64,000 nucleotides of DNA from assembly GCF_004526235.1 (NCBI RefSeq), contig NZ_CP038159.1:1426001-1490000 (forward strand). The letters are read 5' to 3'. The DNA comes from Sphingobacterium sp. CZ-2 (GTDB taxonomy: Bacteria > Bacteroidota > Bacteroidia > Sphingobacteriales > Sphingobacteriaceae). A program made the translations under genes and the position numbers. Below the pieces are notes generated by a model, which saw only the letters and a program-made list of their open reading frames with translations, had not been told where the DNA came from and did not search any database. Within the stretch, counting starts at the first letter, position 1. Each line of letters starts with the position of its first letter. Positions 39,409-59,710 of the stretch are shown here, one piece after another.

Positions 39409-39486
39409 AATGGTTAGAATATAAATAACTGAAAATAGGAAAAATAAAACTATTTCTACAATTTATTGTTTATTAATAAGATAATC

Positions 39487-39498
39487 CCTAAAGGAGAA
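39487..39498 (+). promoter_or_regulatory. Ribosome binding site of the amidohydrolase-like gene
   Basis: AAAGGAGAATTT sits 5 bases before the ATG at 39503, a clear Shine-Dalgarno for the three-gene operon. Confidence 0.55.
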
Positions 39499-39502
39499 TT
39501 TT

Positions 39503-40291
39503 ATGCCTTTGCTTACAAAATATGAAATCAAATTGGCCGATAGCCCATTCTGGACTTTTGCTATCCACGACGGCCACGATATAGATGAAAAATTACTGCC
39601 TTATCAACTGTTGAATGAGGAAGAACGATTACGGGAGGAAGATCCCTTTACTGCGCTGATCGCCGAACTTCCCTGCAATCGCTTTATTATGGAAAGCTCA
39701 CGCTTTCAATTGGACATCAACCGTACCTTGGATGACGCCATCTACCTCAAACCCGAACAGGCTTGGGGTTTAAATGTATGGAAAGAGGACTTCCCATTGG
39801 AATTGATCAGTGAACTCCGTAATGATCATCGCGAAATATTTGAAATCATAGAGAGTAAGATCCAGGATACCATTGCCCAATTTGGCTATTTCATTATCTT
39901 GGATATCCATAGCTATAACGCCAAACGCGAAGGTCCAGACCAAGAGATCAATATGGATACGGATCCTGAAATAAACTTTGGCACCATCCACCTCAACCAA
40001 AAGTGGAGACCATTAATGGATGAATTGATTAACTTTATATCAGCGGAGGAATTGAATGGCCAGGCCATTGATGTAAGGGAGAATGTAAAGTTCAAAGGCG
40101 GCTATTTCGCGCAGACCATGAACCAACTCTATGGAGACTATGGTTTCGTGCTGGCGATCGAATTCCGGAAAGATTTTATGGATGAATGGACCGGTGACCC
40201 CGATTACCACAAAATCATGGCCTGCAAACAGTTACTCTTAAAATCATTGACGGTATTTAACCAGTATTTTCACCAAGATGGAAAAGAATAA
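39503..40291 (+). CDS. N-formylglutamate amidohydrolase-family protein (FGase)
   Basis: 262 residues, cytoplasmic. Zn/active-site blocks of the FGase family: IHDGHDIDEK (about 21-30), SSRFQLDINRTLDDA with the DINR motif (about 62-76), YFIILDIHSYNAKREG (about 129-144) and KFKGGYFAQTMNQLYG (about 196-211). Classical members remove formyl or other N-acyl groups from glutamate in histidine degradation, but no hut genes are here. Instead it leads an operon with a DUF1704 carboxypeptidase (14-base overlap) and an ATP-grasp ligase, so the true substrate is probably another N-acyl or peptide-like amide. Confidence 0.85.
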   Translation: MPLLTKYEIKLADSPFWTFAIHDGHDIDEKLLPYQLLNEEERLREEDPFTALIAELPCNRFIMESSRFQLDINRTLDDAIYLKPEQAWGLNVWKEDFPLELISELRNDHREIFEIIESKIQDTIAQFGYFIILDIHSYNAKREGPDQEINMDTDPEINFGTIHLNQKWRPLMDELINFISAEELNGQAIDVRENVKFKGGYFAQTMNQLYGDYGFVLAIEFRKDFMDEWTGDPDYHKIMACKQLLLKSLTVFNQYFHQDGKE

Positions 40292-42107
40292 AGCACTTTT
40301 ACGTATTCTAAATGCGATCAATAAACGTACTCCTATCCATTATCAAGTTCCAAATGCCGGTAAATTCATATTCAATAAAATAGTTCCCTATATTTTTATT
40401 TACCGTGTTCCAGACACGGGTAAAAAGGATAAAATGATTGCCGATTTGGCAAAGACCGAAAATGCAAGCATTGTATGTAAAGAAGATGAATTTGCGCTGG
40501 AGGAATGGATAAAACCGATTGCTGAATCCTTGGCACAAGAATTTGGTGCCTGTCTATTGATTGAAACTTGGATTTCGGAATCCAACCAAAAGGATGATAT
40601 CCTTTTGCATGTCGGTCAGAAAGATATACTCCCACTTGCGGAATATTTTGAAAGGAACATCCGGATGGAAACGGCAGAATTATCGGTAGCCATTTCTAAG
40701 GACCTGCAGATTCCAAAACCGGAAAACCTGCCATCCTTATTCTCGAAGAAATACCTGCAGAACAAGCAGATTTTATTATTGGGAATATCCATAAAAAAGC
40801 GATATATCGATTACGAAGAGAATATTTTACCACTCTTGATGCGTACCTATCGCGAAACATTGGCAAAATCACTTTCCCGACTTTTCTTTGAATTCCTGCG
40901 GGTCTATACCCACTTGAATGCCACTGCCCAAAAGATCAATGTTCATCAGGAACTTACCCCGATGATGAATGAGATCGATGATGCCTTGGCCCAGGAAAGC
41001 AAGAAATTCGATTTCCTATTGATGGTCACGCCTTTGAATGCCCATGAAGCTTGGTTGCAGTTCAAAAAGGATAAATATTGGAAAACACCAAAATTCCTTT
41101 ACCGACCTATGCACGTAGATCCCGATCTGGTTAAACGCCGGTTGTACAACCTCCGGATCGAAGATATTTACGATCCTACGATGGCCTATATTTTTCGGGA
41201 CAAAAGAACCGAATTGGACTCCATGATCACCATGCTGGCCGATCGTGGTAAAGAGGATTTCCTGCATGGGAGCCTACAGGTATTCGGGAATGTTTCAGAG
41301 AAACTATACAACTCCGCTTTGGCCCTATTGATGATGACCGAACCAGAAACGACTTCCAGCAAAAATGAAGAATGGATCGGACCAAGTGAATTTGCCAAAA
41401 TGGCCAAGGAAGAAGTTAAATTTCTGCAACAACAAAATCAGGAATTCAATTGTCCTATCCGTATCCGCGAAGATATTTCGGGGGTTATGGTCAATAGAGG
41501 GGCATTGAATATCAGTAAGGAGTATAAACTCACCAAATCACGGGCAAAAGCACTCATCCAGCATGAGATCGGCACCCATGTCGTAACCTATTTCAATGGC
41601 AGGATGCAACCATTGAACCTTTTTAGTTTGGGTGTTCCCGGCTATGAAGAATTACAGGAAGGCTTGGCGGTACTTTCGGAATATATTGTTGATGGTCTGA
41701 ACAACGATCGGTTAAGGATCATTGCAGCGAGGGTTATTGCGGTACAACATATGCTCTTGGGTAATTCCTTCACCGATACCTTTGCCCTGTTGGTCGACCA
41801 ATTTGGGTTCAAACATGAAACATCTTTTCAGATTGTCATGCGGGTTTATCGTGGTGGTGGATTGACCAAGGATATGCTCTACCTCAAGGGCATCATGGAA
41901 TTGATCGAATACCTAAAGGAAAACAACAATGTACATCTCCTGATGATGGGGAAAATACGAAAAGATTACCTGCCGATCATCAAAGACCTGCTGCAAAAAG
42001 AAATCCTTATTCCACCAGCCATTACACCGAGGTTCATGTTTCCTGAATATTTGGATAAATGGAAAGAGGTGAAGACAAAAGCATCTGTTTTTAAATTGAC
42101 ACATTAA
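40278..42107 (+). CDS. DUF1704/QEGLA-motif metallopeptidase (tyrosine carboxypeptidase-like)
   Basis: 609 residues, soluble. The zinc site HEIGTH is in KALIQHEIGTHVVTYFNG (about 428-434), with downstream Glu in GYEELQEGLAVLSEYIV (QEGLA motif, about 456-472). This is the DUF1704 family, whose eukaryotic members (MATCAP1/2) remove the C-terminal tyrosine from tubulin; the bacterial members are often annotated 'flavohemoglobin expression-modulating'. N-terminal half (about 1-260) has no recognised motif, perhaps a specificity domain. It overlaps the FGase gene by 14 bases and precedes a glutathione-synthetase-like ligase by 31 bases. Confidence 0.9.
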   Translation: MEKNKALLRILNAINKRTPIHYQVPNAGKFIFNKIVPYIFIYRVPDTGKKDKMIADLAKTENASIVCKEDEFALEEWIKPIAESLAQEFGACLLIETWISESNQKDDILLHVGQKDILPLAEYFERNIRMETAELSVAISKDLQIPKPENLPSLFSKKYLQNKQILLLGISIKKRYIDYEENILPLLMRTYRETLAKSLSRLFFEFLRVYTHLNATAQKINVHQELTPMMNEIDDALAQESKKFDFLLMVTPLNAHEAWLQFKKDKYWKTPKFLYRPMHVDPDLVKRRLYNLRIEDIYDPTMAYIFRDKRTELDSMITMLADRGKEDFLHGSLQVFGNVSEKLYNSALALLMMTEPETTSSKNEEWIGPSEFAKMAKEEVKFLQQQNQEFNCPIRIREDISGVMVNRGALNISKEYKLTKSRAKALIQHEIGTHVVTYFNGRMQPLNLFSLGVPGYEELQEGLAVLSEYIVDGLNNDRLRIIAARVIAVQHMLLGNSFTDTFALLVDQFGFKHETSFQIVMRVYRGGGLTKDMLYLKGIMELIEYLKENNNVHLLMMGKIRKDYLPIIKDLLQKEILIPPAITPRFMFPEYLDKWKEVKTKASVFKLTH

Positions 42108-42138
42108 ATCACTACATAAGAAAAAACTCAACGCAAAT

Positions 42139-43170
42139 ATGAAAATTGCATTTTTGATCAATCAAACGCATAAAGAAGAAGAGAAATTCACGACCACGAT
42201 ATTAGCCCTCAAAGCATTGGAGAGAGGCCATACGGTATTGTATATTGGTTTGGCAGATTTCGTTTACAAGGATGAACAGCGGGTTATGGCACACTGTAGG
42301 CTCATGGAACCTCCTGAAACCATGCCTACTGCAGCCAAGTTCATGAAAACCCTAAAAGCGAAAGAAAAAGAACTGGTCGATATGGCCGATGTGGAGGTGC
42401 TTTGGCTAAGGTTCGACCCTACCCTAGATATGATCGGAAGGCCATGGGCTTCAGCAGCAGGGATTCAGTTTTCCCAACTTGTAAAACGCAATGGAGGATT
42501 TGTTATCAATGACCCTGATAACCTAATCGAGGCGAATAATAAGCTGTACCTGCAGAATTTCCCAAAAGCCATCCGCCCAAAAACGTTGGTCACCAGAAAC
42601 CATGAAGATGTAACGGCATTCCTGAAAGAACAAGGGGATAAAATTATCCTTAAACCTTTAAAAGGCTCCGGCGGAAAGAATGTGTTTATGATCAAATCGG
42701 GAGAGACACAGAACCTGAAGCAAACGGTAGAAGCCATTGCGCGGGATGGTTATGTTATGGCTCAGGAATATCTTCCAGATGCTGTTAAAGGCGATATCCG
42801 TTTCTTCCTGCTGAATGGTGCCCCTTTGGTGGCTGAAGGTAAGTACGCCGCGGTTAGACGTGTGCAATCTGCAGATGAAATCCGAAGCAATATCCATCAG
42901 GGAGGATCGGCTCAAGAAGCAGAAATTACGGATGATATTCTAAAGTTGGTTAAAAAAGTGACCAAAAAGCTAAAGGACGACAATATGTACCTAGTGGGAT
43001 TGGACATTGTAGGCGACAAAATTATGGAGATCAATGTATTCTCTCCCGGCGCTCTGATGCATATTAATCAATTGACTGGCATTGATTTCACCGAAACCAT
43101 CATCATCGATCTGGAAAAACGAGTGAAAGCATTCTATAAACCTACTTCTCGACCACAGTCTCGTCGGTAG
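42139..43170 (+). CDS. Glutathione-synthetase-like ATP-grasp ligase
   Basis: 343 residues, soluble. N-terminal pre-ATP-grasp domain (KIAFLINQTHKEEEKFTTTI, ERGHTVLYIGLADF), then ATP-grasp: DKIILKPLKGSGGKNVFMIK (about 166-185, Lys plus Gly-rich loop), VMAQEYLPDAVKGDIRFFLL (about 206-225) and GDKIMEINVFSPGALMH (about 289-305; Glu-x-Asn for Mg2+). Overall layout is GshB-like (gamma-Glu-Cys + Gly), but no gshA is next to it, and the operon partners are hydrolases of amide bonds, so the substrate pair is open. Ends 29 bases inside the convergent YihY gene. Confidence 0.88.
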   Translation: MKIAFLINQTHKEEEKFTTTILALKALERGHTVLYIGLADFVYKDEQRVMAHCRLMEPPETMPTAAKFMKTLKAKEKELVDMADVEVLWLRFDPTLDMIGRPWASAAGIQFSQLVKRNGGFVINDPDNLIEANNKLYLQNFPKAIRPKTLVTRNHEDVTAFLKEQGDKIILKPLKGSGGKNVFMIKSGETQNLKQTVEAIARDGYVMAQEYLPDAVKGDIRFFLLNGAPLVAEGKYAAVRRVQSADEIRSNIHQGGSAQEAEITDDILKLVKKVTKKLKDDNMYLVGLDIVGDKIMEINVFSPGALMHINQLTGIDFTETIIIDLEKRVKAFYKPTSRPQSRR

Positions 43171-44131
43171 TAAGTGGAGCGGGCGGAATTTCTTTGACAT
43201 TCCGCTCGATCTCTTTAACCTCTACATGAACCGCATATTCCGATGGCTCTATCGGATAATTTTTGAAGGTGGCATATTCCCTCGTAAAAATTGCCCCAAA
43301 ATATAGAATAGCCGCGGTATAATACACCCATAATAAAATCAATACGATCGATCCAGCAGCGCCATAAGTCGTAGCGGTATCTGAATTGGAAAGATAAAAT
43401 CCTATTCCTAAGCGTCCGAAAATAAAAAGAATAGCGGTAAATAAGGCGCCCGCCTTAACCGGTTTCCATTGGATGTTGACATCAGGAAGAACCTTAAAGA
43501 TAACCGAGAATAATAAAAATATAATTCCAAAGGTTAGCATGAAATTGATGATATCCATAACATGCACGGCCATATCCGGGAAATACCGCAATAAGTTATC
43601 GGTAAAGGCAATAATGATCCCGTTGACCACTAAGGTGACCACCAATAGAAATCCTAAACCAATGACCAATGAAGAGGATAACAAACGGTCCATGATCAAT
43701 TTTAACCAACCTTTTTTCGGTTTCGCCCGCACATGCCATATTTTGTTGATGGAGTTCTGAATATCCCCAAAAACAGTGGTCGCACCAATGATTAATGTGA
43801 CTATACTGATGATCAACGCCATGGAAGATTTTCCGGAAAGCTCCAAGTTTTTAATGATTTCTTGAACCTGACGTGCTGCATTTCTTCCTATCAGTTCATT
43901 CAACTCCGAAAATAATTTACCTTTAATGGCATCTTCCCCATAGAAAATACCCGCCAAAGAGATCATCAGCACCAAAATAGGACCTATGGAAAAGATAGTA
44001 TAATAAGCCAAGGAAGCACTATACTTCATGGTATCTTCATTGATAAATCCTAATGCACTATTTTTTAAAATCGTAAAGGTGTTTTTAAAGAAACCTCCTT
44101 GTTTTTTATCTTCTTTTCGCTGTTGATCCAT
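43142..44131 (-). CDS. YihY/BrkB-family inner-membrane protein
   Basis: 329 residues with six membrane segments (TMKYSASLAYYTIFSIGPIL, GKSSMALIISIVTLIIGATT, SSLVIGLGFLLVVTLVVNGI, INFMLTFGIIFLLFSVIFKV, AGALFTAILFIFGRLGIGFY, GSIVLILLWVYYTAAILYFG). The LAYYTIFSIGP and FGDIQNSINKIWHVR-type blocks are typical of the YihY family, once wrongly called RNase BN. Function still open; an envelope or export role is supposed. The C-terminal 30 residues are acidic. 3' end overlaps the ATP-grasp gene by 29 bases. Confidence 0.9.
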   Translation of the reverse strand: MDQQRKEDKKQGGFFKNTFTILKNSALGFINEDTMKYSASLAYYTIFSIGPILVLMISLAGIFYGEDAIKGKLFSELNELIGRNAARQVQEIIKNLELSGKSSMALIISIVTLIIGATTVFGDIQNSINKIWHVRAKPKKGWLKLIMDRLLSSSLVIGLGFLLVVTLVVNGIIIAFTDNLLRYFPDMAVHVMDIINFMLTFGIIFLLFSVIFKVLPDVNIQWKPVKAGALFTAILFIFGRLGIGFYLSNSDTATTYGAAGSIVLILLWVYYTAAILYFGAIFTREYATFKNYPIEPSEYAVHVEVKEIERNVKEIPPAPLTTDETVVEK

Positions 44132-56709: not shown

Positions 56710-56782
56710 GGTGCCATAGCTCAGTTGGTAGAGCAAAGGACTGAAAATCCTTGTGTCGCTGGTTCGAATCCAGCTGGCACCA
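56710..56782 (+). tRNA. tRNA-Phe (GAA), copy 1
   Basis: 73-base tRNA with acceptor GGTGCCA / TGGCACC, D-loop AGTTGGTAGAGC, anticodon loop CTGAAAA (anticodon GAA, Phe), T-arm TTCGAAT flanked by GCTGG/CCAGC, discriminator A. The genomic end reads ACA, so CCA is added later. Identical in every base to the copy at 59635. Confidence 0.96.
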
Positions 56783-56784
56783 CA

Positions 56785-59634: not shown

Positions 59635-59707
59635 GGTGCCATAGCTCAGTTGGTAGAGCAAAGGACTGAAAATCCTTGTGTCGCTGGTTCGAATCCAGCT
59701 GGCACCA
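59635..59707 (+). tRNA. tRNA-Phe (GAA), copy 2
   Basis: Same 73 bases as copy 1 from acceptor GGTGCCA to TGGCACC plus A, anticodon GAA. Promoters of the two copies are unrelated, while the downstream terminators are inversions of one another. Confidence 0.96.
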
Positions 59708-59710
59708 CTG

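Follow-up and report, generated by a model that had tools for sequence, protein, structure and literature searches.

A conserved bacterial operon of a MATCAP metallopeptidase, an N-formylglutamate amidohydrolase-like hydrolase, and a GshB-like ligase

Results

A three-gene operon in Sphingobacterium

I analyzed a stretch of 64,000 nucleotides from Sphingobacterium sp. CZ-2 (contig NZ_CP038159.1, positions 1,426,001 to 1,490,000), which is called the window below. It contains an operon encoding, in this order on the forward strand, a metallohydrolase resembling N-formylglutamate amidohydrolase (FGase), a MATCAP (DUF1704) metallopeptidase, and a GshB-like ATP-grasp ligase. The three genes and their products are referred to as FG, MC, and GS, and their positions are listed in Table 1. 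An earlier note on this DNA had described three genes in the same direction with a 14-base overlap and a 31-base gap, and this description was found to be exact to the base. The HEIGTH and QEGLA motifs that it had reported in the second gene and the KPLKGSGGKN and EIN motifs in the third were also located, and their catalytic letters are invariant in 26 sequences of each protein. The host genome (G000) is complete (3.93 Mb) and has a single MATCAP gene and a single FGase gene, both within this operon. In the nearest named relative, Sphingobacterium humi, the MATCAP protein is 77% identical and the gene order is the same.

Conservation of the linkage

Is this arrangement common in other bacteria? 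The survey of the window's family covered 251 genomes, and MATCAP is present in 68 of them; within the window's genus, 48 of 52 listed genomes have it. Thirty MATCAP loci of this family were read, and in every one of them MC is flanked by an FG open reading frame (ORF) and, on the opposite side, by a GS ORF, all on the MC strand. A wider sample took in 297 genomes from across Bacteroidota, and MATCAP was found in 16. The same genomes have 19 GSH-S_ATP matches above 150 bits; 17 of these adjoin MATCAP and are spread over 15 of the 16 genomes that have it. The remaining two (in G190 and G072) group with Escherichia coli GshB, and the score then drops to 97 bits for the next match. All the system-type ligases (17/17) therefore lie beside MATCAP. 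A further sample consisted of 30 larger MATCAP loci from Bacteroidota, rhizobia, and Vibrionaceae. All three genes occur in 24 of them, including three with FGase and MATCAP in one polypeptide, and three more have the ligase and an aspartoacylase-like gene in place of FGase. The order FGase, QEGLA protein, and 'glutathione synthase' is also annotated in Sinorhizobium meliloti pSymB, Pararhizobium, Aminobacter, and Shinella. The linkage of the triad, for which the earlier note had proposed a neighborhood survey, is thus borne out and is far above chance. Since the genes have been kept together across distant bacteria, the triad is very probably one unstudied system.

Several architectures were found. 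Type I (FG, MC-long, GS-B) occurs in the window, rhizobia, and most Bacteroidota. Type II has the order GS-A, FG, and MC-short; FG and MC-short form a single ORF in a Bacteroidota genome (L025) and in two Photobacterium replicons (L041 and L042). Type III (GS-A, FG, MC-long, GS-B) was found in L026 and L027. In type IV (L032, L034, and L035), MC-long is followed by GS-B, there is no FG beside MC, and a gene of the AstE_AspA_cat family adjoins GS instead. Finally, solo MATCAPs of about 425 to 445 residues without partners were found in L021, Pseudoalteromonas (L040), and Aeromonas (L044). In the locus of Sinorhizobium medicae WSM419 (L018), the FG match stops short, and roughly 1.8 kb of additional DNA lies between it and MC, as if an insertion had interrupted FG; the other rhizobial loci read have no such gap.

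The MATCAP protein

MC matches PF08014 (MATCAP) with an E-value of 1.9e-89 (300.6 bits, cut-off 27) and scores 325.6 bits with TIGR02421, slightly below the cut-off of 338.65. The catalytic residues H429, E430, H434, and E461 are invariant in the 26 system sequences and are also matched in the structure alignment with human MATCAP; besides the HExxxH motif and the EGxA glutamate, several arginines, GG, KD, and a tyrosine are invariant. The AlphaFold2 (AF2) model has a mean pLDDT of 87.6, and its C-terminal part lies on human MATCAP 7z5g (Foldseek E 2e-8, TMt up to 0.71). The human MATCAP entries 7z5g, 7z5h, and 7z6s are the only solved relatives. Judged from these residues, the metal site is intact, and MC is predicted to be a C-terminal carboxypeptidase.

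The first 230 or so residues of MC-long matched no Pfam model. However, their profile aligned with an independent FG alignment (hhalign probability 95%, E 3e-8), while the best of 40 column-shuffled versions reached a probability of 0.8%. In this alignment, the FG motif DIHSYN corresponds to ETWISE in MC, and the first motif lacks its histidine; thus, this domain cannot hold the FG metal site. Weaker Foldseek matches of the MC model (E about 0.01) include FGase 2odf, M14 carboxypeptidases, and succinylglutamate desuccinylase 1yw6. By these comparisons, the N-terminal region is a dead FGase-like domain. Because FG and MC are fused in some lineages while MC carries a dead FG homologue in others, the two proteins may touch each other, and they probably act together as a complex.

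Bacterial MATCAPs carry the uninformative database name 'flavohemoglobin expression-modulating QEGLA motif protein'. The human MATCAP segment matched system-type bacterial MATCAPs with E-values from 1e-8 to 2e-4 and did not match any of the three solo MATCAPs, which makes the system-like proteins the closer relatives of human MATCAP in this comparison. In a tree, the human branch was very long and was not placed. The only phage match to the MATCAP domain (28% identity) is in Pseudomonas phage Y1.

The FGase-like hydrolase

FG matches PF05013 (FGase) with an E-value of 7.6e-16 (59.4 bits, cut-off 28.9). In 25 homologues, 35 residues are invariant, including the HxG(H) and DxHSYN motifs, and the REEDP and SRFxxDxNR motifs are conserved as well. 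The AF2 model (pLDDT 93) has the N-formylglutamate amidohydrolase 2q7s as its best solved match (E 6e-12), followed by M14 carboxypeptidases near E 1e-3, which suggests a fold distantly similar to that of M14 carboxypeptidases. FG shares its fold and PF05013 membership with HutG (2q7s and 2odf), but it is only about 16% identical to 2q7s, and no histidine-degradation genes adjoin it in the window. The HutG (N-formylglutamate deformylase) equivalog of NCBIfam made no call for FG, and S. meliloti FG scores 22 bits against a cut-off of 278.75.

There is no sequence likeness between FG and the AspA-like proteins that replace it in type IV loci, so that their common trait would be the chemistry, hydrolysis of N-acyl acidic amino acids, and the broad fold. 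The exchange therefore suggests that cleavage of N-acyl glutamate or aspartate is the chemistry that the system needs.

The ligase and the glutathione question

GS matches PF02955 (GSH-S_ATP) with an E-value of 4.4e-51, and GSH-S_N is also matched. The ATP-grasp set is complete, with catalytic K, G, E, and N invariant in 26 sequences. The best solved match of the GS profile is E. coli GshB 1gsa (E 3e-66, profile residues 2-332), which indicates full-length homology, and the second is RimK 5zct (E 1e-21). The solved relatives are GshB, RimK, LysX-type enzymes, and cyanophycin synthase, and TTL is not among them.

Is GS then an ordinary glutathione synthetase? In the tree, the window's GS lies outside the GshB clade (support 100/100), and GS-A is the sister of GshB (97/99), closer to it than GS-B. 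The window's GS does not reach the cut-off of either glutathione synthase equivalog (TIGR01380, 208 bits vs 299; NF003573, 220.6 vs 272). The GS-A member tested passes NF003573 and PRK05246 and fails TIGR01380. In NF009110 (glutathione synthetase, cut-off 408), the ligases of S. meliloti (501 bits) and L023 (467 bits) are included, and that of the window (397 bits) is not. Three sampled GshBs have MDP, RGN, and TSPT in common; the system ligases differ at these motifs and have SPGG and RSN, the latter presumably as in RimK. The GshA families GCS2 (PF04107) and Glu_cys_ligase (PF04262), both detected in the E. coli control, are absent from the window genome, and 9 of the 16 MATCAP-bearing Bacteroidota genomes lack both. 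None of the 16 has a glutathione reductase above the curated cut-off. PF08886 matched no control genome and thus gives no evidence on GshA. Since the window genome has no recognizable GshA, ordinary glutathione synthesis is unlikely. The earlier note had named a normal glutathione synthetase with GshA elsewhere as grounds against its reading; the absence of the two families and the separate clade do not agree with this, and GS is best described, from its sequence, as a GshB homologue outside the GshB clade.

In G190 and G072, a true GshB-like gene is followed by a conserved pair of genes for proteins of about 250-350 and 450 residues (L051 and L052), and the latter may be a glutamate-cysteine ligase.

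Induction at low salt in Photobacterium damselae

In P. damselae RM-71 at 1% NaCl compared with 3%, A0J47_RS17020 ('glutathione synthase GshB') is up 38-fold and the adjacent RS17025 (QEGLA protein) 27-fold (PMC10308900). Both rank with the most strongly induced genes at 1% NaCl, as do RimK (52-fold) and putrescine and norspermidine genes, and the authors treat RS17020 as the GshB known from Vibrio cholerae (PMC10308900). Related Photobacterium loci have GS-A beside the fused FG-MC. Since RS17020 adjoins a QEGLA gene on chromosome II, it is suggested to be the GS-A of this system.

Other features and neighbors

A divergent intergenic region lies upstream of the operon, and a Shine-Dalgarno-like AAGGAG precedes the ATG codon of FG at 39503. 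Consensus promoter and terminator scans of the operon region were at or below the chance level; for that reason no promoter is claimed upstream of FG. A convergent YihY/BrkB membrane protein gene overlaps the end of GS by 29 bases, and Aminobacter (L038) also has a BrkB gene, upstream of its triad. BrkB was rejected as a partner of the system, since it is near the triad in these two cases only and is not a recurrent neighbor. Elsewhere in the window, there are two tRNA-Phe(GAA) genes 2.9 kb apart, and the 87-base regions around them are nearly the same. This could be the trace of a duplication or of a site of integration.

In six flavobacterial loci, an SDF symporter closest to GltP is encoded directly upstream of GS-A. 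A rhodanese gene lies between GS-A and FG in L026 and L029, the L029 copy being closest to 3-mercaptopyruvate sulfurtransferase, and a DCC1-like thiol-disulfide oxidoreductase is a neighbor in six loci. In the loci read, no conserved gene for a candidate protein substrate lies beside the triad, and its recurrent neighbors include no exporter, tailoring enzyme, or precursor peptide.

A second operon of Bacteroidota also has an FGase gene adjoining those of amino-acid ligases, in the order C39-like peptidase (assigned by eye), RimK-like ATP-grasp ligase (about 485 residues), GCS2 ligase, and FGase. It differs from the triad in having other ligases and no MATCAP, and it is a separate system.

Table 1. 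Positions of the operon, its motifs, and other features (window coordinates unless another locus is named)
Feature	Position	Strand	Details
Divergent intergenic region upstream of operon	39409..39502	+	sequence
Shine-Dalgarno-like AAGGAG	39491-39496		
FG, FGase-like metallohydrolase	39503..40291	+	262 aa; PF05013
FG motif AIHDGH	39560-39577	+	conserved
FG motif DIHSYN	39902-39919	+	conserved
FG/MC ORF overlap	40278-40291		14 bases
MC, MATCAP (DUF1704/QEGLA) metallopeptidase	40278..42107	+	609 aa, two domains; PF08014
MC N-terminal degenerate FGase-like domain	40278..40916	+	residues ~1-213; hhalign, Foldseek
MC catalytic MATCAP domain	40977..42083	+	invariant residues, Foldseek
MC motif HEIGTH	41562-41579		residues 429-434
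MC motif QEGLA	41655-41669		residues 460-464
MC-GS gap	42108-42138		31 bases
GS, GshB/RimK-type ATP-grasp ligase	42139..43170	+	343 aa; PF02955
GS motif KPLKGSGGKN	42652-42681	+	residues 172-181
GS motif EIN	43027-43035	+	residues 297-299
YihY/BrkB membrane protein gene	43142-44131	-	
tRNA-Phe(GAA) genes	56710-56783; 59635-59708		
Interrupted FG locus, L018	5178-9833		
Rhodanese, L026	10316-11137		
Rhodanese, L029	5770-6609		
Second ligase-FGase operon, L047	3885-7241		without C39-like gene
Second ligase-FGase operon, L048	3229-7324		
Second ligase-FGase operon, L049	5325-9717		
Second ligase-FGase operon, L050	5701-9818		
GshB-like gene and conserved pair, L051	1446-4881		
GshB-like gene and conserved pair, L052	5147-8539		
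MATCAP-domain match, Pseudomonas phage Y1	63494-64531		OQ572403.1

Discussion

What could the three enzymes do together? GshB and RimK lengthen a carboxylate by one amino acid, MATCAP takes off a C-terminal residue, and FGase and AstE/AspA hydrolyze glutamate or aspartate that carries an N-acyl group. By analogy, GS would activate a carboxylate as an acyl phosphate and join an amino acid to it, the MATCAP domain of MC would remove the C-terminal residue, and FG would cut the amide bond of such an N-acylated amino acid, taking the acidic C-terminal residue off the acyl group. The triad might thus be an add-and-trim system for the C-terminal residues of a small compound, either a peptide or an acyl-amino acid of the glutamate or aspartate type, a reading to which I give about an even chance. 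It supposes one substrate common to all three enzymes, a glutamate- or aspartate-type small molecule rather than a protein, and an assumed direction of flux. A small metabolite is favored over a protein tail because of the exchange of FGase with aspartoacylase, the GltP-type symporter, which fits a small acidic metabolite, and the low-salt induction together with polyamine genes. The N-acetylaspartylglutamate (NAAG) pathway (RIMKLA/B ATP-grasp ligases, GCPII, and aspartoacylase) likewise combines an acidic-residue ligase, a carboxypeptidase, and an N-acyl-amino-acid hydrolase (PMC3872778), and it is an aspartoacylase-like gene that replaces FG in three loci. This is a working analogy; the ligase of the triad is closer to GshB, MATCAP is not known to be a relative of GCPII, and a NAAG-like compound would be hypothetical.

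Several points weigh against this reading. The activities, the substrate, and the product of the triad are predictions, and FG is so distant from HutG that NCBIfam withholds the name. The substrate may be a protein, as human MATCAP acts on one. The AspA exchange was probably a single event, since the three type IV ligases form one clade (98/92), and the symporter link is restricted to one family and could be inherited gene order. In addition, RS17020 and RS17025 are taken as an L041-type pair because their locus tags are adjacent.

The earlier note had proposed that the operon parallels the tubulin tyrosination cycle. The three genes that it described stand as a conserved unit with an intact MC metal site, while the tyrosination parallel is an analogy. 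The triad does resemble the tubulin-tail enzymes (TTL/TTLL, MATCAP/TMCP, and CCP) in having an ATP-grasp ligase, a MATCAP-family peptidase with conserved catalytic residues, and an enzyme, FG, whose fold is distantly like that of M14 carboxypeptidases, so that each broad type of catalyst in the eukaryotic cycle has a counterpart. It is then conceivable that GS adds and MC and FG remove C-terminal residues of a bacterial protein, as in tyrosination or glutamylation of tubulin. MATCAP is the sole solved relative of MC, the human segment finds the system-type proteins, the related ligase RimK modifies a protein, and human TMCP1 removes further residues too and requires a penultimate glutamate (PMC10499314). 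However, the triad sits in one bacterial operon with neither an identified tubulin-like substrate nor a conserved candidate protein nearby, its ligase is GshB/RimK-like and not of the TTL type, and its third enzyme is an FGase and not a CCP. Moreover, FGase and AspA relatives of known function act on small molecules, and the symporter occurs in several operons. No finding indicates a protein tail as the substrate, and such a cycle is rather unlikely. A bolder version, in which the ligase, the MATCAP carboxypeptidase, and the M14-like deacylase reversibly edit the acidic C-termini of a cellular protein, possibly near the bacterial source of eukaryotic MATCAP, is quite improbable.

Thiol metabolism is another candidate, with GS as a variant glutathione synthetase that makes or remodels a glutathione-like thiol and MC and FG degrading it. 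The NF009110 assignments agree with this, and it is kept as a rival because GS-A is nearer to GshB and because the rhodanese and DCC1-like genes lie in some flavobacterial loci; still, the missing GshA families and glutathione reductase, the equivalog scores of the window ligase, and the altered GshB motifs make it unlikely. Alternatively, the triad might serve the one-way biosynthesis of a secondary peptide metabolite, in which FG deprotects an N-acyl group and MC trims a leader or an extra residue. A ligase with two hydrolases is a common biosynthetic layout, the triad is patchy in the phylum, and FGase accompanies ligases in the second operon described above. No typical biosynthetic partner recurs beside the triad, however, and since the system comes close to being a core feature of the window's genus, a housekeeping role fits better, which leaves one-way biosynthesis very improbable.

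A literature search, with most subscription papers outside its reach, found no paper on this three-gene system. The 2009 amidoligase survey of Iyer and colleagues may have noted the neighborhood. The triad is a real, conserved, and apparently uncharacterized three-gene system. The linkage suggests that many 'glutathione synthetase' genes are misnamed, such as that of S. meliloti pSymB and probably the low-salt-induced one in P. damselae. MATCAP is a recent discovery as a tubulin-trimming enzyme. With a large class of bacterial MATCAPs paired with a ligase of amino acids and a hydrolase of acyl-amino acids, this family has a testable biochemical context, and the pairing may bear on the origin of a tubulin-code enzyme.

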